Positions 14,126-59,639 of a stretch of DNA of 64,000 nt are shown here, piece after piece. The translations under genes and the position numbers were made by a program. The notes under the pieces are model-generated. The model saw only the letters and a program-made list of their open reading frames with translations, was not told the origin of the DNA and did not search any database. This stretch comes from Taxillus chinensis (Eukaryota; Streptophyta; Magnoliopsida; Santalales; Loranthaceae), in NCBI GenBank assembly GCA_023512835.1, contig CM042085.1, positions 49,843,569 to 49,907,568 of the forward strand, given 5' to 3'. Numbering within the stretch: the first letter of the stretch is position 1; each line of letters opens with the position of its first letter.

Positions 14126-14708
14126 TTAGACATTACTGGTTTTCATCCGGGCCTGTTTGGGTTGGGCTTAACCGAAACCAATACTGAGAAAACTAGAGTC
14201 GCCACCAACTATTTTTGGGGGTACAGTTGGATACCCTCTACCTTGAGTAGTTAAGATGTGATCTGCGTTACCAGATAATGGTTCAGGAGTTGGTTATATG
14301 TAGGGAAGGATTAGCACCCCTATAGCGCTTTTTCGGTATTTATCTTAGGAGGAAGAGGTTTCTATTTGTTTTCGCTACTTGTTTGAGTTTGACTAGTCTA
14401 AGGACCCGCAAGTCTACCTTTTTTACTTCTCTAAGTTATTGTGAAAGTTAAGATTAAATTCGATTTACCCTATACTTCTAAAGAAAATTCTAAAAGTTTT
14501 GGTCTTTTAATTCTTTTTTACTTCTAAGTTTGAAGTGGACAGTGAAATCCAATTAACTTAGGGGTCTAAGGTTTAAAAAGAGATCCTAGATTTTGGTTTT
14601 AGGATAACCACTTCTAGGAAAGCCCTCCCTTTTTTTTCAATTTTTTTGTTTTTTTGTTTTTTGTTGGTTTTGTTTTTGTTGTTTTTTTTTGTAAGGAGTG
14701 AAGCTAAT
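14126..14708 (-). repeat. 3' part of a Tat/Ogre-like LTR
   Basis: Read on the minus strand this matches the last 500-600 bp of the solo LTR at 4027-6743: A-rich tract, GATACCGAAAAAGCGCTATAGGGGTGCTAATCC-type block (shared words only), then CCCGGATGAAAACCAGTAATG. Its 5' side is cut at 14704-14708 (ctaat), which is the complement of attag. The matching 5' part of such an LTR lies at 39794-41742 and ends in attag, so the two are probably one LTR split by Copia C. Confidence 0.82.
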
Positions 14709-16689
14709 TGTAGGTCCCAAAGTGAGTCTAGAGGGGGGGGGGGGGGTGAATAGGCTTTCTTTGTGCGCGGAAGCTAGACTATTAGCTAGTTTTTGGATTC
14801 CTCTTACAAATGACGATGAGGGAAGTATTTATGGAGAAGATGACAGAAGTATTGTAAGGATAAGGTGAGTGATAATGAACTATCAGACAAAACTGATATA
14901 AGAGTAAATGCTTTTCTCAACAAATCTCAGTTGTGAAAGAGATGGTTTATGATAGATCCGAGTGTGGAGAACTAACAACACTGAGATCAGGACTTAATGA
15001 AAGTGCTAGATCTTTGATGAACAAGAGATTCGTGAATACTAAAACAGATTGCTCTTGTTCTTGACTCACACGGTGCACAACACTTTTTCAATTTCTCTCA
15101 GAGTCTCTCTCTCTAGTGTTGGAACTCACTTCGTTAGTTCTGCAAAGGATTATTTTTCTCTAAGTCCGTCAGAAACACTATCTTGTGTTCTGTGTGTTTC
15201 CTTCTTTTGAGACAAAGGTTAAACTCTTGATTTTGTCGTTAAGTGCGTGAGAGATATATTTTTAAGATTAAAGTGCTCGTGTGCCATGATGTCCATCCCG
15301 ACAGACTAACTTCCCGCCACTGAAAATGTGGAATGTTAGGGGATGGGTTGATCTGCTTTGATTTGCAGATCAGATGCCCATACTGCGTATTTGGCATGTA
15401 GTCGATCTTGGCCGTTCATCCGTGGATGGTAGTTGGCAGCAATTAATGCGTCATTAATGCGCTCAACTGCTCGGGACGGCGCAGAGTGGTTGTGTTTAGG
15501 GTTGTAAGTTTGCCTCGGAGGTAGATGCCTCGTAGGTTCGGTGACTCGAAGATTTCAGTTAGCACCTGTAGAAAGTTGCGAAGTTTTGCTTCAGGCTTTA
15601 TGGTGTTTCTGCGAGTCTACGACTCACATCTTTGAGTCTTCGAGGCTAGAGGTCAGGTTGGATTAGCCTTTTATGTCACTCTGTTAACTAAAGTCTACGA
15701 CTCTATGAGTCTGCGACTGTTTGAATAATGCTTAGAGTGACTTCTTCGAGTTCAGCTAATCTACCTGTTATTGTAGCTACGAGTCTACGACTCTAGTTCT
15801 GAGGGTCTACGACCTTCGCGTCTCTCAGTTTACTATGTTTGACTAAGTGGTCTGAAAATCTTCGACTCTACGAGTCTTCAATTTCACTTTTCTTCCTTAG
15901 TCTTTCACAGAGGCTCATAAACTGAGTTCTTGTATAGCTACAACCCTTTAGCTACAACTCTCCGCCATCGATCTCCGAGTTTGGAAGTGTGGCAATTTCT
16001 CTATAGTGACTGTGTCCCTTGAGTCTACGAGTCTACAACCCTTGAGTTACAGTTTCATTTGTTTGCCAGTCTTTATAGCATCGACTCTTCGACCTTCAAC
16101 CTACGAGTCTACGAGTCCAGTTTTCTTAACCGTGTTCGACGGCTTCGACTCTACGACTTTCAATCTACGAGTCTACGAGTCCGGTTTTCTTTACAATGTT
16201 CGAAGGCTTCGACTCTGCGACTTTCGATTTACGAGTCCACGAGTCCTATTTTCTTAACAGTGTTCGAAGGTTTCGACCCTTCGACTCTACGAGTCTTCCA
16301 GTCTAGTGATAATTGAAGTTCTGTTAATTGACTTAAGTATTTGTGGGGACTCTATGAGTCTACGAGTCTACGAGTCATTTAGCTTTGGTTACTGTTCTTA
16401 ACACTTCTTCGACTCTATGAGTCTCCGAACTTATTGACACTTATAGTAACACTCTCTTTTCCGTATTGTGACTCTACGACCTTTGACCCTCGATCTACGA
16501 GTCGCAATGTTCTATCACTGTTTCGCCTTGAGTCTCCAGACTCTACGAGTTTATGAGTCTCTTGCAATACGTCCTATGACAGTTTCACTTCTACGAACTT
16601 TGACTCTTCGACCCTATGACCTTCGGTTCTTCGAGTCTCCAGACTTAGACTATATTTTGGCAGGTTCATCAAATCCTATATTTTCAACA
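14709..16689 (-). repeat. Copia C 3' LTR, about 1.98 kb
   Basis: In element orientation it starts TGTTGAAAATATAGG and ends GGGACCTACA, with a poly-C run near the end. It is closely similar to 41743-43726. The region 15480-16680 is dense in GACTCTACGAGTC-type words and has a tandem repeat of about 64 bp (16080-16300). Confidence 0.93.
16080..16300 (-). repeat. About 64-bp tandem repeat within the Copia C LTR
   Basis: Three to four successive units share TTTTCTTAAC.GTGTTCGA.GG.TTCGACTCTACGACTTTC with point differences. Each unit contains GACTCTACGA and ACGAGTC words, giving the array weak local dyad symmetry. The same array is present inverted at 42120-42350. Confidence 0.85.
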
Positions 16690-16935
16690 ATCTCCCCCTA
16701 TTTAATGTAAGCTGACAACGGGTAAATACATGAAGTCTGAGACTACGAGTTTGATGGGCAATTTTAAATTAATCAGAAGAAATCTTTGCATGTAAAGAAT
16801 GGAGGAGTTCAAATTTTCAAAAATATACACTCCTCTCCCCCATAGGCATGAAGGTTGCGTTAGCTGGCTCCTGTCAAAGATAACTCTAACTCCCCCTACG
16901 AACTTGCTCCCCCTGAGAAATACTCCCCCTTTCTG
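16690..16935 (-). other. Polypurine tract cluster next to Copia C 3' LTR
   Basis: The primary tract (minus AAATAGGGGGAGAT) abuts the 3' LTR. Additional GGGGGAG tracts occur near 16830, 16890, 16908 and 16922, with another at about 21453. Plus-strand DNA synthesis starts at such a tract in LTR elements; the extra copies may be alternative priming sites (inference). Confidence 0.75.
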
Positions 16936-17106
16936 GGGTGAGGAACAAGCACCAGAACACAATCGGCATGGGAGCAATACAGAATAAGGCATAGAACAGT
17001 AGGCAGTAGAGCAAAGATATACATAAAAGATAACTGACAGAAAGTAAGTACATAGAACAATGAAGAGCAAGAAATGCAGTGTACAAGGAATGAGCGTACA
17101 AGACAG

Positions 17107-20098
17107 TTATGGGTTAAATTCAGAGTACAAGACACTCTGTGTAAATAGAAAAACAGCAGCTTGCTCGCGCAGGAGTTGAGCAGGGGTCAAGTGTAACGAG
17201 GCCACTCGACTGCTCACACGATCAAATTCAAACACGAGAGCTGGGAACCCGTTGGTGGTCAGGATGCAGATATAATGGCAAACATAGAAGCCGCAGCTAT
17301 GAGCATCATCCTGAGTAGGAACGCCTTGTTTGACTCGCGTAATTTCCATCGGTTTGGAGAGATGATAACCACCACACCCATGCGAATAGCCCTACATGAC
17401 ACTGGTGAGAGTGCGATTGAATTCACGCAGTTGTTCACGCCGATGGATTAGTAAGGTACTAGGTTTGGAGTCGAAGATGCGATCCTTTGGTTCTTGAAGT
17501 CAATGTCGAGAAGAAACCAGTGCGGGGATGTTGACAAGTAGGGAATTAGCACATGGTCTACCTCATCCCAGGGACGGAAGAAGTTCTCATATCTGCGACC
17601 CTGTATAATCTCGATCATTGTTGCATCATCGATCGGCTGAGCCTGCATAATCGGCAAACAGAGTTCCACCCTGGTATCTCTGCAAATGTGGAGAGGTAGC
17701 TTCTTGAGAAATGACTTCTGTGCAAAGATGAACTGAGTCATCTCGATATTATCCATTTCTTCACTGTCATGGAGTAGTCGACAAAGGTCAGGTCCGGTGA
17801 AGAAGGCTTCATAGCTACAAGTCCTCGCAGTGGTATCCCCAGCAACATAAGTGTTGAATGCAGCCAGTTCAGCTGAGGTGCCTCCAGTAGTTACAATGTG
17901 AGGCGGGGCTAATGGTTGGTTAGTAGTGGTAGCGGTTGGTTTGCTGGGTGAAGCAGGCATGGAGTACTCAGCCGTACTTGGATGTGAAGTTGAGGGGCCT
18001 GGCTGCATGGAAGCAGATGGTTGGCAGGGAGCAGCAGTCTGCTTCTTCATGCGGGTTGCAATTGGAACATCATCATCATCATAAGAATCTGAGATGACCG
18101 TGGTTCTGTGTGCGCGCTTTCTGCCCCGCATGTAAGTGGCAGTAGGCTGAGATTGTGAGTGACTCGGAGAAGGTGCGGCTGGCTATGGAGTATCGACTGG
18201 TTCTGGTGCAGGTCAGTCGGATGGCTGTGGGAGTGTGTTCTTGACCGTAAGCGATATTTCACCACTTGCAAGTCAATGACATTCTGACAGAATAGCTCCT
18301 AGAGTTCTACTGAGTCCTTTGTATTGTCTCTAGTAAGCTCCCTTGATGTCTTCACAATGCTCCTCTAGATGTCTAAACCCATCTATGGTCGCACTTGTGA
18401 GTGATGTCATTTCTTGCTGCACCTTGTCGAGGGTACGATCTGATGATTCAACTTGAGTTCGTACCTCTTCCATGCTTGACTCTATGGTAGCCAGTCGTTC
18501 TTCAAAGGCCTGAGAAACTGATGTCTTGAGGATGCCAGAGGAAATCAGTTTCTCAATGACCTTGCTGGCCAGAAGATCTACTTCTTCAGCCGTCAGAGAA
18601 CATGAGTGAGACGCAGCTGGTACTGGAATAGCCATTGGGATATTGGCTGCGAACTCCTCACTCACTTGAGTGGCCACCTGATGAACGACATGTGCAGATG
18701 GTGTGGCCATCTCAGTCCTTTCCACAATCTTACGAACTTGTGGGACAGATCCTCCATTGGAGTCACTGGCTGCAGCACCAGGAGTTTCTTCTTCTTCTGC
18801 TTCTTCTTCTACAACAATGCCTACCACCTCCGCATCATGTGGAGTAGTTTTGACAGGTGAGTCCACCATGACAAGAGATGGGGCAACCACTGATACGGCT
18901 TCCACTGGGTCACTTCTTACACGACCCTGCTCAACTAACCAATGAATCAGATGGTCACTATCTACCATCTGTTTTCCAAAGGCGATCCATGCCTTTCGTA
19001 AATTAGCGGGGGTCATATGAGCCTTGGCATACTCAATGTAAAAATCTTCTAGCTCAGACTCCCCAAGGGTGCTCAACAGTACAGGTGCAATACCCCTATC
19101 CTCTGGGGTTTCCTGTGCTGGTGTCTGCCCTCCAACTGCAGGTTCTCTTACTTCTGTAGTATCCTTGGGCAGCTCGGTAGTAGGGGTCTCCTCAGGTGTA
19201 GAATCAGTGGGGAGATGAGTTCTGGCAATGTTCTCCACCACTTCAGTTATATGTATTGTTGCGGCGGATACAGAGGAGCCCCTAGAAGTCGGTGAGACAC
19301 GAACCGGCTGTCGTGGTATGCGAACTGGGGCTCGTACAGAGCTGGCTGTGCCTCTTGCACGACTTCTTGCACCTGACTCAGTCCTCTTCATCGACTTGAT
19401 CTCTAGCTGACCATCCTCATAAATACTTTTAAATATGTATTTGGTCGGCAGTGGCACTGAGGGCCTGTTGCAGAATACGTCAGGGTGTAGGAACCTAAGG
19501 CCTTTGGTGAGAAGAAGTCCAAAGTGTCCCTTCTTGATTTTGATCATGGAGTGTATCTGTGTTCCTCAGTCTACTCATCTTCCCTGTAGAACACTGCACA
19601 TGATCTTCATCTGCTCATGACTTGCAGAGTCATGAGCCGTCTTCTTACGCAGTAGGCACTGTCCGGTGACTATGAGAGTCGCCAGTGCCTGACCGGAAAA
19701 CCCAATCTTCAGGGCTCCCCGACCTTGCTTTCTAGGATTGGAGTACCCAAGAAAAGACTTACACTCTTCTCTGGAAAGACTAGGAAGAGGATCAAAGTTA
19801 CCTTTGGGGAGTGGAAGTGCATCTCGGATTGTTTCGGCAGAGATACGAATCTCCACTCCTTGTACAGTTCCCACCAGGTCGTCTCCAGCGAATGCCATGG
19901 CTCGTACAATTCCAAGACATCTTCTATCAGTAAGTCTTGCATCCCTGAGCAGACAGATGTAATACCGGTTTCATCGAGACGGCTTCTGAATTCGTCCAGC
20001 CAGCTGACTTTGGCGTCGCCTATGGCTTCTCAGTCGATGATGAATCCCGAGACGATGTTGCGTATGTCGTCGGCCATCGATGAGCTTGGTCCTGCCAT
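17107..20098 (-). pseudogene. Copia C extra 3' gene: Transposase_32-like region plus ULP1-like protease
   Basis: The minus-strand gene starts at ATG 20096-20098 (MAGPSSSMADDI). After a frameshift it reads DDLVGTVQGVEIRISAETIRDALPLP and GFSGQALATLIVTGQCLL, which resemble the 'putative plant transposon protein' (Transposase_32) family. Two in-frame TGA codons replace likely Trp. The middle (19547-18330) is Pro/Thr/Glu-rich and ends in a predicted coiled coil (RLATIESSMEEVRTQVESS). The C-terminus has a C48 cysteine protease pattern: His in SPHWFLLDIDF, Asp in FDSKPS (other frame) and Cys in DDAHSCGFYVC. Breaks are few. In cells ULP1 enzymes cleave SUMO; the role in the element is unknown. Position after RNase H and before the 3' LTR is the slot often used for env-like genes. 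Confidence 0.75.
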
Positions 20099-20189
20099 TG
20101 AACTTGTAGAGAGAGAAAGAGACACTCGTAGAGAGAGATTGTAAGGTTGAAGTTCGTCAGGGGCGAGAGAAAGTGAGAAAAAGACAGAG

Positions 20190-20258
<69 letters not shown>

Positions 20259-20345
20259 GGGTTAGGGTTCGAGTTTGAAAATGACGAACTTACCTTTGAG
20301 CTCCGTCTCTATCAGTGACTTATATGTGAGTTGAGAAGTGTATCG
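20099..20345 (-). promoter_or_regulatory. Promoter/5'-UTR-like region before the Copia C 3' gene
   Basis: In the gene's orientation a CATATAAG TATA-like element (complement of about 20319-20328) is followed by AACCCTAACCCTAG (a telo-box-like word common in plant 5' leaders), a 60-bp CT run (20194-20253) and the ATG at 20098. This arrangement resembles a plant core promoter and CT-rich leader. Function is inference from words and spacing only. Confidence 0.5.
20194..20253 (+). repeat. (GA)n microsatellite
   Basis: An essentially perfect GA run of about 60 bp lies in the leader of the Copia C 3' gene (CT in gene orientation). Confidence 0.97.
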
Positions 20346-21987
20346 TAGAAGTCACTCACTCTGTCGGTTCGTCTTCATGGTCCGCGTTCTTTTCTTTGAC
20401 CCGACTTTTGATTATCCGGATCCACCCGATGGAATATTCAAGCAATGAATGCACGTCGCCCCTTAAGTAGGTGTAACTCCCATTTTAAGTGAACAGTGAT
20501 GTGCTGACGTGTCTGCGATGCTTGAATAGTAAGTGACAAACTCTGTCTCACTTCGATACTTTGGACTACGACTCTACAAAGCTGCATTAGGATGCTTCGA
20601 GGCTACGACCCTTGAGGCTTCGAAGCAGCAGTCCTCGATCCCGCAGTTCTTCGATGCAGTTTGCTTCGAGGTCGACTGCGAATTCAACGAGCGGTGGATT
20701 TCTCTAGACTTTTTCAACACTTAACAACACACATGAGATGCATATGACAATTCACATAATATTATTCATGAAGAACAGTGTTGTGAGTGGAATTGAAATT
20801 ACATATCCAGAACTTGATTTCTTTCATCCGTAATACCTGGTTTACATGTATGCCTACTGCATCACTACCATTCAACTCTCCATTTGCCTTAGAAATGACT
20901 AAGTACTTCATCACACTACATCTTGTGTGAGAAAATGATCACTCTGGTAACATAGCAACCATTAAACTATGATTTATCAATTGTAACAACCCAGTCATGA
21001 ATTTTGAGTCTCCTCACATATTTAGCAAAACTCACTCAGCAGGGGCCTCACCCTCTCACTCTCGGATCAGCACATGAGTTTGATTCAGGAACTAGAATTA
21101 CACTGTTTGGTAAGCTCATGGTCGACCGAATCTTACCACAACCCTGATCCAACAATGATTTTCAGTTCAGCATAGATGACTTGAGAGACAAGATGGCCCT
21201 ATTGAGAATCAGAACACACACTCTATCCTTGTCTAATTTACAACACAGTATAGGTAGAGTTTGGAGATTGATCATTCAGATAGTCTGCGTGAGTTATCTC
21301 TTTTCTTTTGTAGAGCACCAATTTTCAGCGCTTATTCATGAGCCTTTTTACAAGGACAGAGCTCAACGCAATCTCTTTTTGAATCACCTGATCATACAAT
21401 TTTACCTCCAGCTATTACTCTAACAGAGACACAAACTGGGAGAATAATGAGGACTCCCCCTAAGATAGGCAGTCAATCTATTGTCTAGCTTTTGCCTTTT
21501 TCACCTAGCCTTTTTCTAGTGAAAGGTAGTGGCTCTTCTTAAGTAATAGGCTTTTTATGATTCTCAAATACTACAGTCTCAGTCATCCTTTGAGCATTAA
21601 ATCATTGAGGATCCTTTCCGTGCAAGCCAACAGTACCATGAGATACAACAGTTCCTGCTAGTTAATGAAAGCAATACCACACAGGTGATATTCGCTCAGA
21701 ATAACATGACTAGTAGTGGGAATATCATTTAATTTAACATAATGGGAATTGCACTCATTTCACTCAAGACTTGAGGATTAATGAAAGGTTGCAGAAAAGA
21801 CTTGAACCAGGTTCAGAGGTGGCAAGTTTTATCCATGTGATTTCTCACTTTCCCGCAGTAGATATGCATGAATCACACTTAGCCATTACTAATTTTCATG
21901 GAGATATAAATAGTTATTAACAGTGTCATACTTATGTTCATGCACAGGTAATTAGGTTGAAATGAAACACAAGACATGCAGTGAGAC
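20346..21987 (-). other. Non-coding spacer between Copia C RNase H and 3' gene
   Basis: No supported reading frame is seen. The segment 20530-20650 carries a few CTACGACTCTACAA/TTCGAGG words like those of the LTR. One extra CTCCCCCTAAG (polypurine complement) is at about 21453. Confidence 0.6.
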
Positions 21988-23676
21988 TCATGAATTTAAA
22001 TCTAACATGCCAAGTTTTGTTAGAAGTTCATTGAACCTGGCTTCTTGAAGTGGTTTGGTAAATATGTCGGCAAGCTGGTCATCAATGGATATGTACTCTA
22101 GGGAAATGTCTTTCTATAGCACATGATCACGTATGAAGTGATGTCTGACCTCAATGTGCTTGGTTTTGGGATGCATGACAGGATTGTTGGAGATTGCAAT
22201 GGCACTTGTATTGTCACAATACAGAGGAACGGCCTTCAGGTTAAACCCATAGTCTGAACGTTGACTGGCCATCCAAAGCAATTGAGCACAACAGCTTCCT
22301 GCAGCAATATATTCAGCTTCAGCTGTGGAAGTCGAAACTGAATTCTGTTTCTTGCTAAACCAGGATACAAGTTTGTTGCCTAAAAGTTGGCATGTTCCAC
22401 TTGTGCTCTTTCTATCAATCCTGCATCCGGAAAAGTCTGCATCTGAATATCCTCTCAGTTTAAAATCAGACTCTTTTGGATACCATAGTCCCAAATTCTC
22501 AGTTCCCTTCAGATACCGCATAATCCTCTTGACATGTGACAAGTGGGATTCCTTGGGATTGGCTTGGTATCTGGCATAGATGCATGTTGCAAACATTATG
22601 TCAGGTTTGCTTGCTGTCAGGTACAGGAAGGATCCAATAATGCTTCTGTATTCTGAGATATCCACCTCTTTGCCTGCTTCATCCATATCCAGTTTGGCAT
22701 TTGTAGAAATGGGAGTTTTCATGTCTGTCACATCAGTTATCTTAAACTTCTTTAGAATCTCCTTTGTGTATTTGGTTTGATTGATAAAGATCCCATCCTC
22801 CAACTGCTTGACCTCTAATCCAAGGAAGAATGATAGTTCTCCCATCATACTCATTTCATATTCACCTTTCATTAGATGGGAGAAGTCTTCACATTGCTTT
22901 TCGTCCCTTGATCCGAAAATGATGTCATCCACATAAATTTGGACTATCAAGGGTGATCCTTTTCCTTCCTTGAGAAACAGTGTGGGGTCAATTTTGCCTT
23001 TTCTGAACTTATTTTTGATCAGAAACTCTGACAATGTTTCATACCACGCTCTGGGAGCTTGTTTTAGTCCATAAAGAGCCTTTTTCAGTTTGTATACCTT
23101 GTGCCCTTGGCTTGGCTCTAGAAATCCGGGTGGTTGTTCAACATAGACTTCTTCTTGGAGGTCTCCATTCAAGAAAGCACTCTTGACATCTATTTGATAC
23201 ACTTTGAAGTCCTTGAATGCTACATATGCTAAGAACATGCGAATGGCCTCCAGTCTAGCAACTGGTGCAAAGGTTTCATCATAGTTGATTCCTTCTTCTT
23301 GTCTGTATCCTTTTGCAACCAGTCTGGCCTTGTTTCTGATGACAACACCATCAGCATCAAGTTTGTTTCTGAAAATCCATTTCACGCCAATGACTTGCTG
23401 TGATCTGGGCCTGTTGACCAACTCCCATACTTTTTGTCTTTTGAACTGATTTAACTCTTCTTGCATTGCGTCAATCCAATGGCGATCCTGAACAACATCA
23501 TCAACTGATTTTGGCTCCACTTGTGATAGGAAACACATATACAGATTTTCATGAAGTGTGGCAGCCCTTGTTTTGACTTGTGCAGCAGGATCTCCAATTA
23601 TCAGTTCAAAAGGGTGGTCCTTTAACCTTCTTCTTGTCTTTGGAAGGTCTTCTCTTTCTTCATGATGAATGCCCAA
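21988..23676 (-). pseudogene. Copia C reverse transcriptase-RNase H
   Basis: A long open frame (23676-22114) encodes a complete [89 protein letters not shown] and the catalytic [11 protein letters not shown]. RNase H follows with [23 protein letters not shown] and [11 protein letters not shown]. One stop at 22111-22113 separates the C-terminal tail (DQLADIFTKPL...LGMLDLNS), which ends at 21988. It polymerises element cDNA and removes the RNA template. It is nearly intact and closely similar to the Copia F enzyme at 61340-62947, indicating the same lineage. Confidence 0.93.
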
Positions 23677-23878
23677 TTGCTCAATGTCAGATTCTTGGGC
23701 TGGTATAAGTGGCAGAGTCTGAACAGGTTAAATGTTAGAGTCATGGTTTTCTGCTGATTTTTTGACTTGTTTCCTCAGCAACTGGTTCAGCTCTGTGTTC
23801 ATCAGGTTCAGGTGCATCTTCCAATGTTTCTGTTGTAGTGGGATTATCTGTGTCTTGGTCTTCTACAATGACAATGTC

Positions 23879-25130
23879 CTACACTTCATTTACATTCGGG
23901 TCTCCTTTCTGCATTCCATGGTTAGTCTCATCAAAAGAAACATGAATAGACTCTTCAACAACTTTGGTTCTTCTATTAAATACACGATAAGCCTTGCTAG
24001 TCATGGAATATCCAACAAGATATCCATCATCTGATTTGGCATCAAACTTGTTCAAGTAATCCTTGCCATTGTTCAGAATATAGCAAGTACACCCGAAGAT
24101 CCTTAGGTGACCAATGTTTGGTCTCCTTCCCTTCCATAACTCATAGGGTGTTTTCATGGCTCGTTTGTTAATTAGAGTTCTGTTTTGTACATAACAAGCA
24201 GTGGCAACAGCTTCAGCCCATAGGGATTTTGGGAACTAAGCTCCTGTCAACATGGTTCTAGCTGCTTCAACTAATGTACGATTCTTTCTTTCAGCCACTC
24301 CATTTTGTTGTGGAGTTCTTGGTGCTGAGAAATTATGCTGGATACCATGTTCAGTACAAAATTCTAACATATCAGAAAATTCAAATTCCTTGCCATGATC
24401 GCTACAAATGTACTTAATAGAGAGATTTTTAACATTTGTGACCCAATTGAAGAGTTCAACAAGATTCTCAAATGTTTCAGTTTTGTTTTTGAGAAACATG
24501 ACCCATGTATATCTGGTATAGTCATCTACTACTGCAAGAAAGTATCGTGCACAGACAAGGAAGACACATTTATTGGTCCACATAGGTCCATGTGCAGAAG
24601 TTCGAGTGGTTGTGTGATTGAGGTTTTATCTACACTCTTAAAGGAATGTTTAACCTGCTTACCCAGCTGACAATCCCTACAAGGGTGTTCTTTCTCGTAA
24701 ACATGCTTGGCTAAGCCCTCAACCAAATCCAGAGAAGCCAGTTTAGACATAGTCTTAAAGTTTACATGACCAAATCTCTTGTGCCACAACCAACTAATGT
24801 CAGGTGAAGCTTTGGACAGAAAGCAAATTGGTTCGTCAGATTGAGCATTACCAAAGACCAACTTGTAGACATTGCCTTGTCTATGTCCATTTAGCTTCAC
24901 TTCTTTAGAGATAGGATCCATAACTGTGCAGGTGTGTTTAGTGAACAAAACTTCATAACCCTTGTCACACAATTGACTTATGCTCAACAGGTTATGTTTA
25001 AGACCTTGAACAACAGATACATTCTGAATGGACACAGAATAGAGAGGCATCATCTGTCATGTGCACAGAACAGGCACTATCAAGATACCACTGGCTGGAA
25101 TTGATCTTTTGTCTCTGGTGGCTACTTTCA
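23879..25130 (-). pseudogene. Copia C protease remnant and integrase
   Basis: Protease is visible as QWYLDSACSVHMTDDA near 25060-25110, with DSA in place of DSG and the middle of the domain deleted. GLKHNLLSISQLCDKGY follows, then the pre-integrase zinc region (LWHKRFGH, CRDCQLGK). The integrase core has Asp in HMDLCGPI, Asp in CSDHGKEF and Glu in VAERKNRT, so the DDE triad is intact. Frameshifts near 24560 and a stop near 24236 divide the domain. It inserts element cDNA into the genome. The C-terminal linker (KTPYELWKGRRPNIGHLRIFGC and onwards) is readable to 23879. Confidence 0.87.
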
Positions 25131-25162
25131 GCTTCAGGTACCTATTCCTGCACAATGAGCAA

Positions 25163-27208: not shown

Positions 27209-27506
27209 CGACGTAGTTTTGATAAGTGACACTTCCAAAATTAAAATCTCTCAATCTAAGCACAATATGAACAAGGTCCTTTAGGAAAGAATGATCAGCA
27301 TAACAAAACGACTGAATCGGTGCAAAAATATGGCTGCACGTCAATTTGAACGTCATATGCCCAATTGCCGTGCAGCTCCAAATTAGGTGAAATTCCTCCC
27401 CAAGCTTCCTTGCATCATGTATGCAGTAATATGCTTGCACGCCATTTGGTCCAATTGGCATTCAAGGCCTTTGGCTTTGAAACTTCTGTGCAAGGTAGAG
27501 GACATC

Positions 27507-38400: not shown

Positions 38401-39020
38401 TTAAGCAAAGTAAATAAATGATCAAATGAATAATATAAACAAGTAAATGAAGAATATAAACAATTAAATAGAAAAAGAAGAAATAAACCTCCTAATCTTA
38501 ATTCTAGGCCTAACTCTCTAACAATCCCTAACAATCCCTAACAATCCCCCCCACCCAGACAGGATCCAATAATGACAATATGATGCATGTATAACTGTTT
38601 GACATGTTGTATGCATAATGATGTATAAGCAAGTACAGGATTAGCCTTAATGTATGACTGTATATGTTTGCAAGATTGAGACAGCACCCGTGGTGTAATC
38701 TCTGTTGGGGTTTGTCACCAATCTCTTGACCCTTCAGGTGCAGGCATGAGGAAGTCACATTCCTAGTTCCTGGTTCTTTGGAATTCGGGGGTATAACACC
38801 TATCCTTCCTCTTATCCCTTTAGCAAACTAGTAGTACCTAGGTGTGGAAAAACACACCCACCCCTCCTCTTGTTCTTTAGATCAATTGGAAGGCCCTTGC
38901 TCACTTCGATCCATGCCTCCATACCAGATCAAATTGTAGTTGTCGCACTACCACAGATCGAGTTGTAGTCATTGCACCACCACAATTCAAGATAGAAAGA
39001 GTGTTATTCCCATAACCTTT
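38401..39020. other. Unassigned, no gene seen
   Basis: A+T-rich sequence with a triple ACAATCCCTA repeat (38520-38550) and a poly-C stretch. The piece 38480-38520 (CCTCCTAATC...CCTAACTCTC) resembles 14090-14115. No coding motif was found. Confidence 0.5.
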
Positions 39021-43726: not shown

Positions 43727-43728
43727 AT

Positions 43729-43740
43729 CGGTATCAGAGC
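43729..43740 (+). other. Copia C primer binding site, one mismatch
   Basis: CGGTATCAGAGC follows the LTR by two bases. The usual tRNA-iMet site is TGGTATCAGAGC, so the first base is changed from T to C. Confidence 0.88.
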
Positions 43741-43767
43741 AGTTTTACAACTCCGTAGAGATCCCTA

Positions 43768-44479
43768 ATGGCTGACATGGATTCCAGTAGTGCAGCTCCA
43801 GCTCCCGAGCAAGCTCCAATTCCTGTTAAGGAACTTGAAGCCAATCATGTTCTAGAGGAAGGAGCGACTGGAGACCAGGAGCCGAAAGAACCGAGTACCC
43901 GCAGCAATAAGAAAGAACAAGAAGACTTCTATGATGTTTTGCCTGGCTCATCCTCCCAAGTACCTATGTGCACACCCGCGCTTTTTTCCAAATGGAAAGC
44001 GAGAATGAGCGCACACCTAGACATGCTCGACACCTATCTCTAGGAAACAATAAAGAACGGACCTTTCACCCCAAAGAGTATGCAGAGAGGTCGGCTAATG
44101 ACGAAAGACCCAGATGGTTGGTCTAAGGTGGAGCAGAGGAAAGTAAAGCTCGGCTTCAAGGCAAAAGCCATACTTTTCTCTACACTCGATGATGACATGT
44201 TCACGGATGTGCAGGATCTTGAGACTGCTAAAGAGGTATGGGACAAGCTCTGTCTCATCTACGAAGGAGATGAGCAAATACAGGACAACAAGATCTCCAT
44301 CCTCAAATAAGAGTATGAAGCCTTCAGATGTGAACCGAAGGAGTCATTGGACAGTATCTATAAACGGTTCACAGGTCTGATTCAACGGATGAAGACTTAC
44401 AACGTTGAAATCTCTCAGAAGGACAAAAATGACAAATTTCTGAGATCTATACCCTTGAGACTGTTGATAAAGACATCAG
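43768..44479 (+). pseudogene. Copia C gag, 5' segment
   Basis: It starts at ATG 43768 (MADMDSSSAAPAPEQAP) and encodes an acidic, low-complexity N-terminus, then FSKWKARMSAHLDML, a stop at 44041, FKAKAILFSTLDDDMF and KEVWDKLCLIYEGDEQI, a second stop near 44308, and the EPKESLDSIYKRF core. It is cut by the gypsy LTR after ...gacatcag. The same core is present uninterrupted on the minus strand at 27208-27050. Confidence 0.88.
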
Positions 44480-46002
44480 TGATAACGTGCATTTATGACA
44501 TTATTCTATTGCCTATTTAGGGGTGTTTAAGAGCATGATTAGAGCTTTATTGTATTATATTTCATTTATATTTGCTCTAACCCCTAGGAAGATGCTATTT
44601 GCATATACATGCGCTTTTAGACTGTTTTGTCAGGTTTTGGAGATTAATTTTGACCAAGTAGATGGCTGCAAACCAATTGGAGTGCAGAACTAAAGTTTCT
44701 CAGAATGATGTCCTCTACCTTCCACAGAAGTTTCAGAGCCAAAGGCCTTGAACACCAATTGGACCAAATGGCATGCAAGCATATTACTGCATACCAGCCT
44801 TCTACATGATGCAAGGAAGCTTGGGAGGAATTTCACATAATTTGGAGCTGCACGCCAATTGGGCATATGACGTTCAAATTGACGTGCAACCATATTTTTG
44901 CACCGATTCAGTCGTTTTGTTATGCTGATCATTCTTTCCTAAAGGACCTTGTTCATATTGTGCTTAGATTGAGAGATTTTAATTTTGGAAGTATCACTTA
45001 TCAAAACTACGCCGTTTTGATAAGTTGTGACAGATGGGCTAGGGCACACTTTATAATATAGCATTCAAGCCCATCAGCAGCTATATAAGGAGGTCTATAC
45101 GTCCTTGGAGTAGAAGAGGCAACACAACTCGTTTTTGGAGATTTTTGCAGCGTTTCACGTTTTTAGAGAGAGAAAGAGAAGGCTCACGTTCTTGGAGCTG
45201 CCGGCCCTAAGAGTTTGACGGCTGCAGAAGATCCAGAGTTGAAGTCCTGCCGCTCTTGGTTCTAAGATGATGTTCTTTATTTGTTTATGCTTTGTCAAGA
45301 ACATGCATGAGTAGTCTTTTAATCTAGGGGAGCAATGTAGCCTCCTAAGTTGTTAAACTGATTATTTGAATATTGGGTTTGTTTAATTGAGATTGCATGT
45401 TTTATGAATCTGTTCTTCATCTTTTAATATCTGGGGTGTACACCTGGGTTTTGTTACCCTTAGTTTGAGGCTGATCTTTGATTCATAACATATTTGTGAT
45501 TGGTGTGATCATTATCCTGTCATGAGTATTATAATTATGCTTTGTATGTTGCTGCTATGATGACCATTTAGGCAGACAGCACTTAGAAGGTTTTCAATGA
45601 CCATTTGTAGAACCTTAGCTTAGTTATGGCATGTTATCAATTAAATAATCTCAAGAACCTTATAATCAGTAGAAGCAGCGTAGGGAGGTGAAGTTGTGAC
45701 CCTAGATACCTTTAATCCTTGAATTTTAGTCCTAAAAGCAACTTGCTTTCTTTGATATTTTAGAAAACCACATAAAAATTAGATCATTAGTTTAAAAAAG
45801 AAAACTTTTTGCCAAGACATTTTATAAAACAAGAGTAATTGGGTGTTTTGATTTAAGAACTAGAAAACTAAGCTAATCCCTGTGGGTTCGACCCCTTACT
45901 TGCTGTTATTCTTTTAGTGCAAACTTAGGGAATTTATTATCTTGAAGAGAGATTTTACGACATTAGCTAGCTCTTTTAGAGAGGCTAAAAATCTGTCTGT
46001 CA
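44480..46002 (+). repeat. Athila-like gypsy 5' LTR, 1.52 kb
   Basis: It runs from TGATAACGTGC to CTGTCTGTCA and is followed three bases later by the primer site. TATA-like GCTATATAAGG lies at about 45081-45091. It contains an AAAACTACGCCGTTTTGAT palindromic word (about 45003). The matching 3' LTR is the truncated copy at 27207-30311. Confidence 0.92.
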
Positions 46003-46005
46003 AAT

Positions 46006-46023
46006 TGGCGCCGTTGCCGGGGA
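46006..46023 (+). other. Athila-type primer binding site
   Basis: TGGCGCCGTTGCCGGGGA is the classical Athila/Tat-clade primer site, usually attributed to tRNA-Asp. It fixes orientation and the LTR end. Confidence 0.95.
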
Positions 46024-46707
46024 TTCAACGGTTGACTAGCTTTAGAAAATCAACATTGAATGAAATTGTCTGAATTTCGATCTTGGTGCTTATTTTTCTT
46101 TAGTTTTTATTTATTTTTGAATTGTTCGGAGCTGCTGGGTGTGTTCTTGTTTTCTTACAGGAACATTCACAGCGTATTTGTGAGAATTCCTAGTTGTGCA
46201 TGCCAAGAGAGGAGTTTATACCATTTAATTGGGAACCTGAAAGGTTGTTCAGAGCTCGTCACAGGGCAGCTAGGGAAGCAGCACGAGAGGCTGAAGAAGC
46301 ACTGCAAGGCTTAGAGCATTCAGTAGGTGAATTGATGGCAGATTTAAGGCCTGATGGTGGTGCACCGCAAGGAAGGGCCAATTACAATGGCCAATATCCA
46401 GAAGAAGAGGGTAATAGGTTTATGCCCAGAACCTTCTTAGATTACGCGAGACCGATGATGTCAGACCATTATTCTGGGATTAGGCAAACAAGAGTTCAAG
46501 CAAATAGTTTTGAGCTGAAACCAGCATTAATTAATATGGTGAGCAACAACGCTTTTGGAGGAACAACAGTGATGATCCACACCAGCATTTGATGAGGTTC
46601 TACCAGATGTGTGACACCATAAAGATCAACAATGTGTCGGAGGAGGCAATAAAGCTAAGACTTTTCCCTTTCTCCTTAAGGAATAGAGCTCTTGGGTGGT
46701 TTAACAG

Positions 46708-46925
46708 TGTTGGACCTCGGCCAGGGCACTCACTATCACAATATTGTGCGCTTTGGCACTCACGCACCCACCCATGGGCCACAACCCGCACGGATTTGTT
46801 TCTAACGGGCCGCGACCCGTTAAAACGCGTTGTGACAAGGTGCACATGAGCCTCCTCATTAGGACGACCTCAATGTTCGCCCTAACCGATGTGGGATTGA
46901 TCTATGGGACGTTAGAGACCTAACA
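46708..46925 (-). repeat. TRIM 3' LTR
   Basis: A 218-bp repeat, TG...CA, adjacent to the polypurine tract (complement of about 46926-46940). Confidence 0.95.
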
Positions 46926-46977
46926 GTCTCCCCCCCAATCCCACCATCGGTCTAGAGGACCCGGCTCTGATACCACT

Positions 46978-47195
46978 TGTTGGACCTCGTCCAGGGCACT
47001 CACTATCACAATATTGTCCGCTTTGGCACTCACGCACCTACCCATGGGCCGCAGCCCGCACGGATTTGTTTCTAACGGGCCGCGACCCGTTAAAACGCGT
47101 TGTGACAAGGTGCACATGAGCCTCCTCATTAGGACGACCTCAATGTTCGCCCTAACCGATGTGGGATTGATCTATGGGACGTTAGAGACCCAACA
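46978..47195 (-). repeat. TRIM 5' LTR
   Basis: A 218-bp repeat with its minus-strand end two bases before the primer site. Right target duplication at 47196-47200. Confidence 0.95.
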
Positions 47196-48611
47196 AACAG
47201 TTTACCAGTAGGTTCAATAAATACTTGGGAGGAGATGCAGACTAAATTCATGTCTAAATACTTTCCTCCTTCCAAGGTGATTCAGCTTAAAGGGGAAATC
47301 AGCAGATTCAGGCAAGATGAGATGGAGACTCTTTATGAGGCTTGGGAGCGCTTTAAAGATTTGATAAGAAGATGCCCTGACCATGGATGACCCTAATGGA
47401 TTCAAATTGAATCTTTCTACACTGGTCTTTAGTTTCACTCACAAGATAAGGTGAATGCAGATGCTGGAGGATGTTTAATGAATCTAGAGCCTAATGCTGC
47501 AGCTGAACTCTTAGAGAGACTGTCTTTGGCTGATTGGCAGTGGTCGAATGTACGGACTGCAAGGCCAAGGGAGAAAATAGCTTCAGTTGATAATTCTTCC
47601 AACAATATGCAAGACCAGATCCAGGCTTTAGTGAAAAGTATGAAAGTGTTGGCTCTTAAAGTCGGAGGATCACAGTAAGCCTCACCAGTAGTTGAGCAAG
47701 GATGGAGTGGAGCTGAAGAAGCAAATTATGTTGGAGGGAAAGGCTTGTACCAAAAGCAGCAATATTATCCTCAACAACAAGTACAAGGGTACAATCACAA
47801 CCAACAAGAATCTCAGGCATATCAGAAGAACCAGAACCAAGGGGGAGATACATCAGTTCAGTATAAATATGTGCCCCCAAGGATGAAGCAAAATCCGTAT
47901 GCTACTGATAATTATTTACATCCACCTCCAGGATTCGAGCAGCAATAGCGTCAGCCTCAACAACAAAGAGGAAGAACATATCTGAATAAGGATGAGACAG
48001 CTAAAAGAAAGATGGGTGATTTGGAGGAAAGGGTAGGCAGCATGGAATCTTCAATGAAGAATATGGAAAAGCTGCTCGTAAGTATGGCACAGAATGTAAA
48101 TCAAGGAGTTTCAGCTAAATCTTTTCCAAGTGACACTGAAGTGAACCCCAAGGAGAGTTGCAAGGCTATCACTTTAAGGAGTGGGAAAGCATTGAAGGAA
48201 GCTGATGACCAAGGAAAATTTGATAAAGAAGAAGAAAAGGTGCAACCAAAGAAGGACCAACAGTTGACTGAAGGCAGACTAGCTGAAAAACAAGGGCTAA
48301 AAGAGCTAAGGCCTACCATGCTATTTCCTCAGCGGTTAAGAAATCAAAGGGTTGAGGAAGAGTATGAGCGCTTCCTGAGTTTATTCAAGCGGCTTTAAAT
48401 TAATATCCCATTTGTGGAAGTTTTGGAGCAGATGCCCAGGTATAGAAAATACATTAAAGATTTTGTGAAGAAGAAGAGAAGGTATGGGGACCATAAGACG
48501 GTAGCTATCACAAACGAGGTAAGCAGTGTTGTCCAAAGGAATTTGCCCGTCAAGCATAAAGATCCGGGCAGTTTTAACCTTCCTTGTGTGATTGGAAATG
48601 CGCCGCAGTAG

Positions 48612-51005
48612 CAGGCCCTTTGTAATTTAGGGGCTAGTATCAACTTGATCTCCTTTTCTCTATACAAGCAGCTTGGGCTCACAGGAATGAAGCCAACTTC
48701 CTTCTTATTGCAGTTTGCGGACCGGTCCACTGGAAGACCTGAAGGAATCATTGAAGATGTGCTAGTTAAGGTGGGCTCCTTCATTTTTCTAGCAGACTTT
48801 GTAGTTTTGGAAATGGAAGAAGATAGAGGAGTTCAGCTCCTCCTTGGAAGACCGTTTCTCAGAACAGGGTGTGCACTGATAGATGTGGCTCAAGGGCAAC
48901 TGACTCTGAGAATTAATGAAGAGACCTTAGTCTTCCATATGGGGAAGGCTTTACAAGGTCAAGAAGAGGAGGACTGCCTATGGGTTGAAGATTTTGAGGA
49001 GTTGGTGGAAGACTTTTTGGCAGAAGATATTACCATAGCAAATGATGGAGTGCTCCAGCTTATAGAAGCTCAACAAGATGAAGAAGTGGACTTGACAGCT
49101 GAGGAGGATGAGCAAACATCAAATTCTCTGGAGCAAGCAAAGGAGGAGAAGGAAAAGGACATACCTCCAGCTCCAGAACTAAAGGAACTGCCTGGACACC
49201 TAAGGTATGAATTTCTAGACTCTACAAATAAATTCCCAGTTATAGTTGCTGCTAATTTAAATGATGTAGAGTGCACTCAATTGCTAGAAACCCTTAGAAA
49301 ACACAAAAAGGCCCTAGGGTGGAACATTGAAGACATTAGGGGTATAAGTCCAGGGATTTGTATGCACAAAATTCTAATGAATGATGACTTTAAACCCACA
49401 GTTGAAAGACAAAGAAGATTAAACCCTACCATGAAAGAAGTAGTAAGAAAAGAAATTCTAAAATGGAAAAATGCGGGTATAATTTATGTTATTTCAGATA
49501 GTGAGTGGGTGAGTCCGTTGCATGTTGTGCCCAAGAAAGGGGGTATGACAGTGATTAAAAATGAGAAGAATGAATTGATCCCATCTCGGACTGTGACGGG
49601 ATGGAGAGTGCGTGTTGACTATAGGAAGCTGAATAAGGCCACCAGGAAGGATCACTTTCCCCTTCCTTTCATTGACCAGATGTTGGATAGGTTAGCTGGC
49701 TATAGTCACTACTGCTTTTTAGATGGATACTCCGGGTATAATCAGATCATGGTTAAACCTGAAGACCAAGAAAAGACCACTTTCACGTGCCCCTTTGGCA
49801 CCTTTGCTTTTAGGAGGATGCCATTTGGGCTATGCAATGCACCTGCCACCTTTCAAAGGTACATGATGGCCATTTTCCAGGGCCTAGTGGAGGAGATCAT
49901 GGAGGTTTTCATGGATGACTTTTTGGTGTTTGGTTCCTCCTACCAACAGTGTTTGAAAAATTTAGATGTGGTCTTAGAAAGATGTGAGGAGAAGGAACTA
50001 GTCCTAAATTGGGGAAAATGCCATTTTATGGTAACTGAGGGTATAGTTCTAGGGCACAAGGTGTCTTCACAAGGTTTGGAGGTGGACAAGGCAAAAATTT
50101 CCACTATTGAGACTTTGCCACCTCCAACAAATGAAAAAGGGGTGAGAAGTTTCCTTGGCTATGCTGGCTTTTATAGGAGATTCATTAAGGATTTCTCTAA
50201 AATTGCAAAACCCATGAGTAGGCTGTTAGAGAAGGACACAAGCTTTGAGTTCAATGCAGATTACTTAGAAGATTTCAACATCCTCAAGGGTAAGTTAGTC
50301 ACTGCACCAGTTATAGTGACATCAGACTGGGCTCAACCTTTTGAGCTAATGTGTGATGCAAGTGATTATGCTATGGGGGTAGTCTTAGGGCAAAGACGTG
50401 ATAAGGTATTTAGGGTCATTTACTATGCTAGTAAGACCTTAGATGATGCTCAACAGAACTACACCACCACTGAAAAAGAGTTGCTGGTCGTGGTTTATGG
50501 CTGCATCAAGTTTAGACCCTACCTTTTTGGGTCTAAAGTAATTGTTTATACTGATCATGCAGCTTTGAAATATTTATTTGCTAAAAAGGAAGCTAAGCCA
50601 CGCTTGATTAGGTGGGTACTCCTTTTACAGGAATTTGATCTTGAAATTAGAGACACAAAGGGAGCCCTAAATTCTGTGGCTGATCACCTCTCCCGTGTGG
50701 AGAATGCACCTAAGTCTCTACCCATTGTAGATGACTTTCCTGATGAGAAGTTGTTTGAGGTGCACCAGCTTCCTTGGTTTGTTGATATAGCAAACTATTT
50801 AGCCACTGGGTTTATACCCAAGCAATTGAACTACCATCAGCGAAAGAGGTTGGTAGTGGATGCTAAGAAATACATTTGGGAAGACCCTATTCTCTATAGG
50901 AGGTGTCCAGACCAAATAATTAGAAGGTGTGTCCTTGAGGAGGAGATAGATGACATAATATACCATTGTCATTCATCACATTATGGGGGCCACTTTGGGG
51001 TGTAG
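48612..51005 (+). pseudogene. Athila-like protease, reverse transcriptase, RNase H
   Basis: The frame continues from gag after the stop at 48609. The protease active site reads LCNLGASINLI: the Athila consensus has Asp (DLGAS), so the catalytic residue is Asn here, one G-to-A change. Numbering from Met 48645: acidic linker about 110-180; RT with DYRKLNKATRKDHFPLPFID, FLDGYSGYNQI, FGLCNAPATFQR and the catalytic FMDD at about 422-425; RNase H with MCDASDYAMG (Asp about 571), EKELLVVVYG and TDHAALKYL (Asp about 637), then ADHLSR. The zinc region of integrase starts at the end (YHCHSSHYGGHFG). A single missing G in a G run at about 51000 shifts the frame into integrase. RT-RH is uninterrupted for 786 codons. 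Confidence 0.94.
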
Positions 51006-51964
51006 AGAACGTGGCTAAGATCATGCGGTGTGGCTTCTATTGGCCTCACATGGTGAAAGACACCTATGTCTACATCAAAACCTGTGATAGATGTCAAAGG
51101 GTAGGTGGTCTATCTAGGAAGAATGAGATGCCATTAACCTGGAATTCTTCCAGTTGAAATTTTTGATATATGGGGCATTGATTTTATGGGGCCATTCCCC
51201 AATTCGATGGGTATTCATATATCTTATTGGCTGTGGATTATGTGTCAAAGTGGGTAGAAGCTTTACCAACCAGAGTGAATGATGCTAGAGTAGTGACTCA
51301 CTTCCTTACCAGAAACATCTTTAGCCGATTTGGGACACCAAGGGCTATAATTAGTGATGAGGGTAGTCACTTCTGCAATAAATTGTTTGACAAGTTATTG
51401 AACAAATATGGGGTAACTCATAGGAAGTCTTTAGCTTACCACCCACAAGCTAATGGACAAGCAGAGGTGTCCAACAGAGAGATTAAAGCCATTTTAGAGA
51501 AAACTGTTGGAGCAAATAGGAAAGACTGGTCTCAAAGGCTTGATGAAGCCTTATGGGCATATAGGACAGCCTATAAAACTCCCATTGGGATGTCACCTTA
51601 CCATATTCTTTATGGGAAGGCTTGTCACTTACCTGTGGAATTAGAGCACAAGGCTCACTAGGCCTTGAGGAAGTTAAATTTTGATCCACAAGAGGCCAAA
51701 GAGCTTAGAATGACTCAATCAATTGAATTAGATGAGTTCAGGATGGATGCCTATGAAAGTGCTAAAATTTATAAAGAAAGAACTAAGAAATGGCATGATA
51801 GGCAATTAACCAATGGACCTGTAACCTTGGGGCAGAAAGTTCTCTTATTTAACACAAGGTTAAGGCTATTTCCTGGAAAAATTAAGGTCCAAATAGATGG
51901 GACCTTTTGTGATAGTTGATAAGAAGCCATATGGGAGCTTTGAGCTCCAAGCTGTAGATGGCAA
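51006..51964 (+). pseudogene. Athila-like integrase and pol C-terminus
   Basis: After the frameshift the sequence reads GFYWPHMVKD and CDRCQRVGGLSRKNEMP (completing the HHCC zinc finger). The core domain has its triad in [16 protein letters not shown] and [10 protein letters not shown], with a further shift near 51150. A stop at 51660 precedes LRKLNFDPQEAKELR. The C-terminal part runs via VTLGQKVLLFNTRLRLFPGK and, after another one-base shift near 51893, DGPFVIVDKKPYGSFELQAVDG, ending at the CACTA terminus. The DDE residues are intact. Confidence 0.9.
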
Positions 51965-52195
51965 CACTACTACAAAAGAGGGCACTAACGACGCTTTTGA
52001 TTTGGCTTTTAACGACACTTTATGAAAGTGTCGTTAACATTGTTAGAAGACGAAGTTTATCTTGGACATGTCGTTGAATTTTTAAAGTTAACGACACTTT
52101 CTAGCGTCGTTAATAATATAATACAATGACGCTAATAAAAAAGCGTCGTCATAGTGTAATTTTATTATCGACGTTTTATAGGAAACGTTGTCAAT
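51965..52195 (+). repeat. CACTA subterminal inverted repeats
   Basis: The words ACGACGCTTT, ACGACACTTT and their complements occur repeatedly. They form hairpins at about 52009-52036 (arms TTAACGACACTTT and complement), 52090-52116 and 52126-52150. They probably bind the element's own transposase (known for En/Spm TNPA). Confidence 0.88.
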
Positions 52196-53717
52196 CCATC
52201 TTTAATTTACTCTTATCCCTAGCTATCGTTCCCAAATCAATCTCTCTCTTACCTTGCTCGCTTGCTCGGAATCCCTAATCGCTAATTCATTTGCTCTTCC
52301 GTCTCCCCTGATCGATCGAGTGCGTTCTCTCTCCCGACGTCGCCGGCCGTCCGAGCTTTGTTGATGCCACCGTGGTTTCTCGTAGACGCACATCGCCTTC
52401 TATCCCTGCATCTCTCACTGGACGGCGGTACACCTCAGTCCACAGAGCCATGGCACGAAGCTGACACTGCTGCGACGCCGCTGCATCCTGCCTTCACCGC
52501 CGCACATCTCTTAGCTCCACCACCCATCGGCTGTTGGAGAAAGATAGAAGAAGGTGACCTGTTCTTGATTTTGAAGGAAGAAGCCACATCAGATAAGAGA
52601 GTTGTTAGGTCTTGGGGTTGGTATTTTTTTCATCTTGATTTGTGCTTGTTTTTTCACATCCGTGTTCCTCCTTTTCTTGCTCGATCTGTTGGTTTCTACC
52701 TGGCCTAATAAGCTACTTGTTTTACGTTGCATGATTGTGAGCGTTTGTTTCGTGTTGTTTATGAAGTAGTTGAGTGTTGCTTTACCGTTTAGTTGATTTT
52801 CTAGATTGCTAAAAATCTTATCTTTATGTTTTATAAAACCGTCTGCTTGAATAGGTTTTATTATTATTTTTTCCTTTATTTCATGGTTGTTGCATCCAGG
52901 CCTCCATGGAGAGTAGATGTTTGTTCCTGCTCCCTTTGTTTTGTGTTGTTTGTTTGAGGTTTATATGGGCTGTAAATTCCATTTGTTCCATATAGCGATT
53001 GCTGCCTTAGTTCGTGCTTGCACGTTTGTTTACTTCTCTAAAAATTTGTGGATAGAATGTCTAGGATACAGTTTCCCCCTAGTTAGACCTTTCTCTAGTT
53101 ATTTAGACTGTACACTCACGTGTTGTTTACTGCATATCATCCCCTAGCTAGGCTAGTTATTCCATGATTGCCCCTTCATGGGCTATCCGTTTGTTTGCTG
53201 CCCTGTTGAGCTTTCTTTTCTGGTTTGGAAATTCATTTGTTGCTTTCTGTTTTTTCCTTTGTTTCTCATTTATTTTATACTGGTTATTAAATTCATTCTG
53301 ATTTATGCTTTCATGTTTATGCTTTTGTTTTTATTTAATAACTGTTTGCATTCACAATGTCCAGAATGTGTCCTCTCTCTGCCTGATTACTAATGTGTGA
53401 TCTGTTTTGGTTTATGCTCTCACTTTGTCAAAATCACACTCCACCTAGTAAGAATATGTTTCATGTTGTCTCTACCCAAGTTGCTGCATGTTTTGCTTGC
53501 TTCACAAATGTTTATTCTATGTCATGGTTCTCATCACACCCATGTTTAATTACTAACGAAGATATTTTGAGTTTTATCATATAAAATTTTGTTGATGTAC
53601 ACCTCTCTTTTCAAGTATAATTATCTATATTTATTGACTTATAATTGTGTCCTTGTATGAGGACAAAGTCTAACTTTCTTCATGTGTTTTAGGTCTTTGT
53701 TTAAATGTTATATGAAG
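52196..53717 (+). other. CACTA leader and intron-like region
   Basis: 52200-52370 has a CT-rich, plant 5'-UTR-like composition. A 116-codon frame (52358-52708, MLMPPWFLVDAHRLLSLHL...) is unrecognised and could be a first exon or a captured fragment. 52710-53680 is T-rich and intron-like, and TTTCTTCATGTGTTTTAG at 53674-53691 looks like a splice acceptor ahead of the transposase exon. No firm gene is called. Confidence 0.5.
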
Positions 53718-54697
53718 ATGGATATACCCTTAGATAAATCTTGGATGTCCATGGATAGGAGATTGCCTAAATATGACGAGGGAGTTAATCAGTTTCTAAA
53801 TTTTGCAATGCTTAATGCAAATGGTCATAACTCATTGAGATGTCCATGTGTTCGATGTGTTAACTGTGAGTGTTTACCTTTAAAAGAGGTAAGAGATCAT
53901 TTGTTCGTTCATGGAATTGATCAAAGGTACCACACGTGGTATTGGCATGGAGAAGAATTGCCAAGTGTACAAGAAGTGCCAAGGGTTACATCTTATCCAG
54001 AACAGATTGGTTGTTCGACCTATTTTGAAGCTTACACACCCGAAGACAGTGCAGACGCAGTGGACATGGTTAAAGCTGCTCAAGAGCAATGTCTTGATGA
54101 TCCTCATGTGTTTAAAAAACTACTTGAGGATGCTGAAAAGCCTTTGTACCCCGGTTGTTCTAAATTTACGAAGCTTTCTGCAGTGGCAAAACTTTATAGG
54201 TTGAAGACAAGTAATGGACATTCCGATAAGAGTTTTACCGATCGTGTAACCGTTAGCAACAATGTTACCAGGATAATAATGAGTTGCCTACATCGGTTTA
54301 TGAGGCGAAAAAGACATTGAAATCATTGGGATTGAATTATGAAAAGATGCATGCTTGTTCGAATGACTGCATTCTGTATCGAAAGGAGTTTGTTGATGCC
54401 TCTGAATGTCCCCAATGTCATACGTCTCGATGGAAGGATGGTAAAAGAGATGGAGTACCTTCAAAAGTATTATGGTATTTTCCGCCCATACAAAAGGTTT
54501 AGAAGTATGTTTCAGACTGTAGAAATAGCAAGAAACTTGATATGGCATTCGAAAGACCGAAAAGTAGATGGACAGCTGCGACACCCAGCAGACTCGGCAT
54601 CATGGAAGTTTGTAGATCTCAAGTGGCCACAGTTTGGCATGGATCCATGAAATTTGCGCTTGGCTCTTTCCGCTGATGGAATTAACCCCCACGGTTC
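53718..54697 (+). pseudogene. CACTA transposase (Transpos_assoc plus TNP2), truncated
   Basis: Start chosen at ATG 53718 (MDIPLDKSWM), after an acceptor-like TTTTAG. The N-terminal domain matches the plant transposase-associated family: KSWM, YDEGVNQFLNFA, CPCVRCVNC, VRDHLFVHGI and YWHGEE. A frameshift near 54270 leads to the TNP2 (Transposase_21) region with YEAKKTLKSLGLNYEKMHACSNDCILYRKE and ECPQCHTSRWK. Another shift near 54495 leads to RHPADSASWKFVD, then MDP-stop-NLRLALSADGINPHG, where the stop replaces an expected Arg. The catalytic C-terminal half is lost at the Copia F insertion. The protein would bind TIRs and cut the element. Confidence 0.9.
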
Positions 54698-59629: not shown

Positions 59630-59639
59630 AGTTAAAGAT

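Follow-up and report, generated by a model that had tools for sequence, protein, structure and literature searches.

A nested transposon stack in two inverted halves at an assembly gap of Taxillus chinensis: one contig very probably placed backwards

A 64,000-base stretch of the Taxillus chinensis assembly GCA_023512835.1 (contig CM042085.1, positions 49,843,569 to 49,907,568 of the forward strand; hereafter the window) contains a nested stack of transposable elements that lies as two inverted halves on either side of a gap of 500 N. The part of the window before the gap is referred to as the left contig and the part after it as the right contig. As an earlier, sequence-only reading had described, four nested levels are present: a Tat/Ogre-like long terminal repeat (LTR) is outermost, followed inwards by a copia element (Copia C), an Athila-like element, and a CACTA-like element. 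At each of the four levels, the 5' part is found on the plus strand of the right contig and the 3' part on the minus strand of the left contig. Judged from the sequences themselves, there is little doubt that these are the halves of one stack, broken inside the CACTA-like element. Very probably, a contig boundary divides the stack and the right contig has been placed backwards, for which scaffolding would be the cause.

Evidence for a single stack

The view that one stack is present in two inverted halves is supported by the placement of primer sites and purine tracts, a split integrase motif, the collinearity of the outermost LTR, and the order of divergence among the levels. An identical flank occurs on both sides at the Copia C level (ATTAG) and at the CACTA-like level (TGGCAA), and all four flank positions proposed from the sequence alone (Table 1) proved correct letter for letter. 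The description of the two halves as complementary holds in the sense that they are matching halves of the same elements, but not as sequence, since only the LTRs and short common stretches match.

When the window was compared with itself, the top-scoring match was the Copia C LTR pair (14707-16689 in the left contig against 43728-41743 in the right, inverted, 88.8% over 2045 columns with gaps counted). Primer-site motifs come after both right-hand LTRs of the stack, and purine-tract-like sequences precede both left-hand LTRs, the motifs being taken here to have these meanings. At Copia C, the primer-site motif after the LTR in the right contig and the purine tract before the LTR in the left contig identify the former as the 5' LTR and the latter as the 3' LTR. 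The element shows the features of the Ty1/copia group, namely RVT_2, an LTR pair, a primer site, a purine tract, and a 5-bp target duplication. In the left contig, Pfam RVT_2 is found within 22114-23727 (E 4.8e-79) and gag_pre-integrs within 24529-25056, with Retrotran_gag_2 within 26636-27250 below its cut-off.

The outermost level is represented by LTR sequence alone, and its Tat/Ogre lineage, a name carried over from the sequence-only reading, is presumed. A complete 2717-bp LTR-like insertion of the same LTR family, with GGAGT on both sides, is present at 4027-6743 and serves as a reference for both halves. The right-hand part (39794-41742) can be aligned with the first 2115 or so positions of this copy, with significant matches at 1-985, 1153-1260, and 1726-2064, while the left-hand part, read on the minus strand from 14703 to 14126, aligns to about 2135-2714, with a significant match at 2348-2714 and an A-rich first part that matches weakly. 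The two parts are thus collinear with the complete copy and meet at the Copia C insertion, although the meeting point is A-rich with many low-complexity matches and its exact base is uncertain. The complete insertion itself sits between a copia gag open reading frame (ORF; 3209-4033) and a copia pol ORF (6699-8276).

The Athila-like element supplies a junction at which a coding motif is divided between the two contigs. Its right-hand part yields Pfam matches to RVT_1, RT_RNaseH, and rve, the domains looked for in a Ty3 element of the Athila lineage, and its 5' LTR is followed by the primer-site motif TGGCGCCGTTGCC at 46006, a tRNA-Asp-type site that we take to be linked to the Athila lineage. 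In the left contig, ORFs lie on the minus strand at 34246-32114, one of them with a weak match to the plant transposon family PF20167 (20.6 bits, below the cut-off of 45); the 3' LTR follows tract-like sequence, is interrupted by a solo LTR, and is truncated at about 27207. Relatives were sought with the reverse transcriptase (RT) portion of the Athila-like polyprotein, which gave 7,965 scored candidates at E values of up to 1e-30. The 120 that were listed come from many plants; they were aligned to the window with tblastn under a permissive threshold, and for each relative the right-contig match furthest to the right and the left-contig match nearest the gap were kept. Forty-three of the 120 match within 51100-51990 of the right contig, and 13 also match the last 500 bases of the left contig on its minus strand. 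On their own, the left-contig matches of those 13 are of low significance (E 0.14 to 8.4). Counted by hand, the residues implied at 51964 in the right contig and at 35065 in the left agree to within 3 in 13 of 13 relatives and to within 1 in 12.

The same junction was recovered with a profile of the integrase C-terminus. It was built from the corresponding pieces of the 20 proteins, out of the 120, that satisfied a residue-motif filter; this filter was written after the flanks had been read, so that the choice of the 20 was not blind. When 3,192 stop-to-stop fragments from the window, each 12 residues or longer, were searched with it, the profile matched at positions 1-22 to 51900-51965 of the right contig on the plus strand (E 3.1e-4) and at positions 22-46 to 35062-34988 of the left contig on the minus strand (E 4.9e-6). 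These are the only two matches with E below 0.1 among all fragments, the next best having E 0.78. The split of the profile at position 22 indicates that one conserved motif lies in two pieces, in opposite orientation across the gap, and that it was cut at the CACTA-like insertion.

The innermost element shows two features of the CACTA superfamily, CACTA termini and a transposase-associated domain, and shares short subterminal repeats with known members. The same 13 terminal bases, CACTACTACAAAA, open both of its ends, at 51965 in the right contig and at 35067 on the plus strand of the left contig. The right contig leaves the element at 54697/54698, where the LTR of another copia element (Copia D) starts; of the remainder of the CACTA-like element, only the 48 bp with which the left contig closes (35067-35114) lie in the window. 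A run of ACGACACTTT-type repeats resembling those of this element is also seen at 9010-9307, just after a copia ORF (8571-9005); it ends in TGTAGTG and may be a short non-autonomous relative whose 5' end has decayed.

The levels also differ in divergence. By Kimura two-parameter distance (K2P), the Copia C LTR pair stands at 0.060 (110 differences in 1,922) and the two parts of the Athila-like LTR at 0.0356 and 0.0352 (together 18 differences in 522), the outer LTRs being the more diverged (Fisher p 0.045). On these distances, the Athila-like element would be younger than Copia C, as a single stack requires, by a modest difference. Such an arrangement resembles the nested LTR-retrotransposon clusters described for REANNOTATE, in which fragments are grouped per insertion event and ordered in time, outer before inner; the clusters as presented there differ from the present case, in which the halves are in opposite orientation across a gap (PMC2672092).

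Table 1. Positions of the stack, its flanks, and the elements inserted in it
Feature	Position in window	Strand	Remark
Assembly gap, 500 N	35115-35614	.	separates left contig from right contig
Outermost Tat/Ogre-like LTR, 5' part	39794-41742	+	last bases ATTAG; aligned to complete insertion 4027-6743
Outermost Tat/Ogre-like LTR, 3' part	14126-14703	-	aligned to complete LTR-like insertion 4027-6743
Copia C target duplication ATTAG, 5' side	41738-41742	+	
Copia C target duplication ATTAG, 3' side	14704-14708	-	
Copia C 5' LTR	41743-43726	+	followed by primer-site motif GGTATCAGAGC at 43730
Copia C 3' LTR	14709-16689	-	purine tract AAATAGGGGGAGA before it
Copia C internal region, 5' part	43727-44479	+	primer site, first part of gag; tblastx to Copia D gag region
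Copia C internal region, 3' part	16690-27206	-	rest of gag, gag_pre-integrase, RVT_2, further ORFs
Copia C gag stretch, about 157 bp, first copy	44323-44479	+	beside Athila-like element
Copia C gag stretch, about 157 bp, second copy	27051-27207	-	on the other side of Athila-like element
Athila-like element, 5' part	44480-51964	+	5' LTR from 44480, gag region, RT, RNase H, integrase core; ends within integrase C-terminus
Athila-like element, 3' part	27207-35066	-	integrase C-terminus remainder, downstream ORFs, tract-like sequence, 3' LTR from 30311
CACTA-like flank repeat TGGCAA, 5' side	51959-51964	+	
CACTA-like flank repeat TGGCAA, 3' side	35061-35066	-	
CACTA-like element, 5' part	51965-54697	+	Transpos_assoc domain (PF13963, E 1e-19)
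CACTA-like element, 3' end	35067-35114	-	48 bp up to contig end
Solo LTR, complete (TGTAA...TTACA), target duplication ACATC	27507-30079	+ as printed	within Athila-like 3' LTR
TRIM-like element (terminal-repeat retrotransposon in miniature), 488 bp	46708-47195	-	two 218-bp LTRs (97%), target duplication AACAG; in Athila-like gag region
Copia D, 5' LTR and internal region	54698-64000	+	inserted in CACTA-like element; runs past window end

Evidence against a clean split

Several observations weigh against a clean division of the stack into these two halves. The first concerns the target duplications. CACTA transposons are described as making a 3-bp target duplication (PMC8978399), whereas none of that size was found at the ends of the innermost element, where CAA stands before and TGG after and the 6-bp repeat TGGCAA occurs instead; together with the position of its middle part outside the window, this sets it apart from the known elements, and it is for want of the 3-bp duplication that it is named CACTA-like. 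At the Athila-like and outermost levels, matching short target duplications were looked for on both sides and were not found; such a match is to be expected only where the ends are intact. At the outermost LTR, the outer ends read AACAT before the right-hand side and TCTAATTTT after the left-hand side, which for that level counts as neutral at best. The age gap between the levels, moreover, is only just significant.

The second concerns the split itself, which had been described level by level. At the Athila-like level it is not clean: the 3' LTR is truncated, and in place of a 5-bp repeat both halves carry the same overlap of about 157 bp from Copia C gag, present once before the 5' LTR in the right contig and once directly after the truncated 3' LTR on the minus strand of the left contig, with both copies matching one identical stretch of the Copia D gag region. 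The duplicated target has a K2P of 0.033 (5 differences in 156 aligned columns), close to the values for the Athila-like LTRs, so that the duplicate probably arose at or soon after the Athila-like insertion. A plausible origin would be a break in the Athila-like 3' LTR that was repaired with an insertion-free allele as template, the repair then being closed by end joining at about 2 common bases. The overlap speaks against a clean cut and yet is in keeping with one stack. An apparent contradiction from permuted matches (44323-44483, 44480-44711, and 44707-45021 against 27208-27047, 30311-30080, and 27506-27202) was dropped, since two of the three belong to a single Athila-like LTR, which the solo LTR interrupts in the left contig, and the third is the duplicated target.

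Explanation and alternatives

The break in the stack coincides with the 500-N gap, and the two CACTA-like ends face the wrong way in the present order. In the true order, position 35114, which lies 48 bp into the 3' end of the CACTA-like element, should adjoin the right contig at its far end, beyond the window, and 35615 would point away from 35114. Reversing the right contig achieves this, and the simplest form would be a reversal of that contig alone, in place (left contig plus, gap, right contig minus). The adjacency is the same as in the order suggested earlier, the right contig followed by the reversed left one, and the contigs stay neighbours. Between the two causes offered by the sequence-only reading, a scaffolding error or a rearrangement of the locus, the former is favoured, with a real inversion retaining a small share of the probability. 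The self-comparison of the window revealed no element outside the outermost LTR that both contigs share; copia LTR pieces at 13074-14078 and 37429-38414 are 71.6% alike and lie in the same orientation. A 23-bp near-palindrome at 35089-35111 stops 3 bases short of the gap and is perhaps a reason for the assembly break.

Errors of this kind have precedents. In scaffolds built from Hi-C data, short contigs are described as hard to orient and misorientation is known, with local orientation errors put at 4.3% for human and 11.7% for worm when 3D-DNA is used; the case described there, in which the neighbours are correct and one contig is reversed, would be like the present one (PMC7672694). A plant assembly scaffolded with 3D-DNA uses spacers fixed at 500 N, the length seen here, although that spacer belongs to another assembly (PMC10421919). 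The present case differs in that the misorientation is deduced from a split transposon stack rather than from contact maps.

The identical arrangement of halves would also result from a true inversion of the chromosome. Such an inversion would have had one break in the gap and a second in the CACTA-like sequence beyond the window, splitting the stack and turning its 5' half. Repeats are common at plant rearrangements, which counts in its favour, yet one of its breakpoints must fall in the gap by coincidence, and it is considered unlikely. Re-insertion of CACTA-like ends was rejected as the cause of such an inversion, since the sequences still flanking the two ends together fit a single unbroken integrase motif.

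The halves might instead derive from two copies or haplotypes of the stack, of which one kept its 3' part and the other its 5' part, and partial copies of this kind could show an overlap like the 157 bp at the Athila-like level. Such an origin would call for two losses, one sparing precisely the 3' side, the other precisely the 5' side, and each stopping in the CACTA-like element, and the divergence of the overlap, 0.033 against 0.035 for the Athila-like LTRs, fits a duplication around that insertion; this explanation is accordingly held to be very improbable. A chance pairing of unrelated elements of the same families in opposite orientation, for which the several related copia LTRs within the window might speak, was rejected as hardly credible in view of two separate flank matches (5 and 6 bp), insertion points that match in three hosts (the outermost LTR, Copia C gag with its overlap, and the Athila-like integrase), and the location of all 5' parts on one side and all 3' parts on the other.

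Other elements in the window

The solo LTR inside the Athila-like 3' LTR may be Tekay-like. Within the Copia D LTR, a second TRIM-like element (55112-56335), with LTRs of about 415 bp that are 99.5% alike, lies between two direct copies of a 118-bp sequence (54994-55111 and 56336-56453, 99%). Since this region consists of a 20-bp tandem array, the 118-bp repeat may be older than the insertion. A solo copia LTR occupies 37028-38400 with TTAAG on both sides. At the left of the window, direct repeats of 258 bp (1162-1419 and 3021-3278, 95%) flank a minus-strand copia RT ORF (1920-3008) and are perhaps the LTRs of a shortened copia element.

Implications

The arrangement most likely reflects an ordinary assembly error rather than new biology, and its biological interest is correspondingly low; its use lies in assembly correction. 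If the right contig is indeed backwards, inferences on gene order, synteny, and recombination near the gap would be in error over a minimum of 28 kb, the part of that contig inside the window. Nested transposons split in this way offer a check of contig orientation from sequence alone, which may be applied to other N gaps in repeat-rich genomes.

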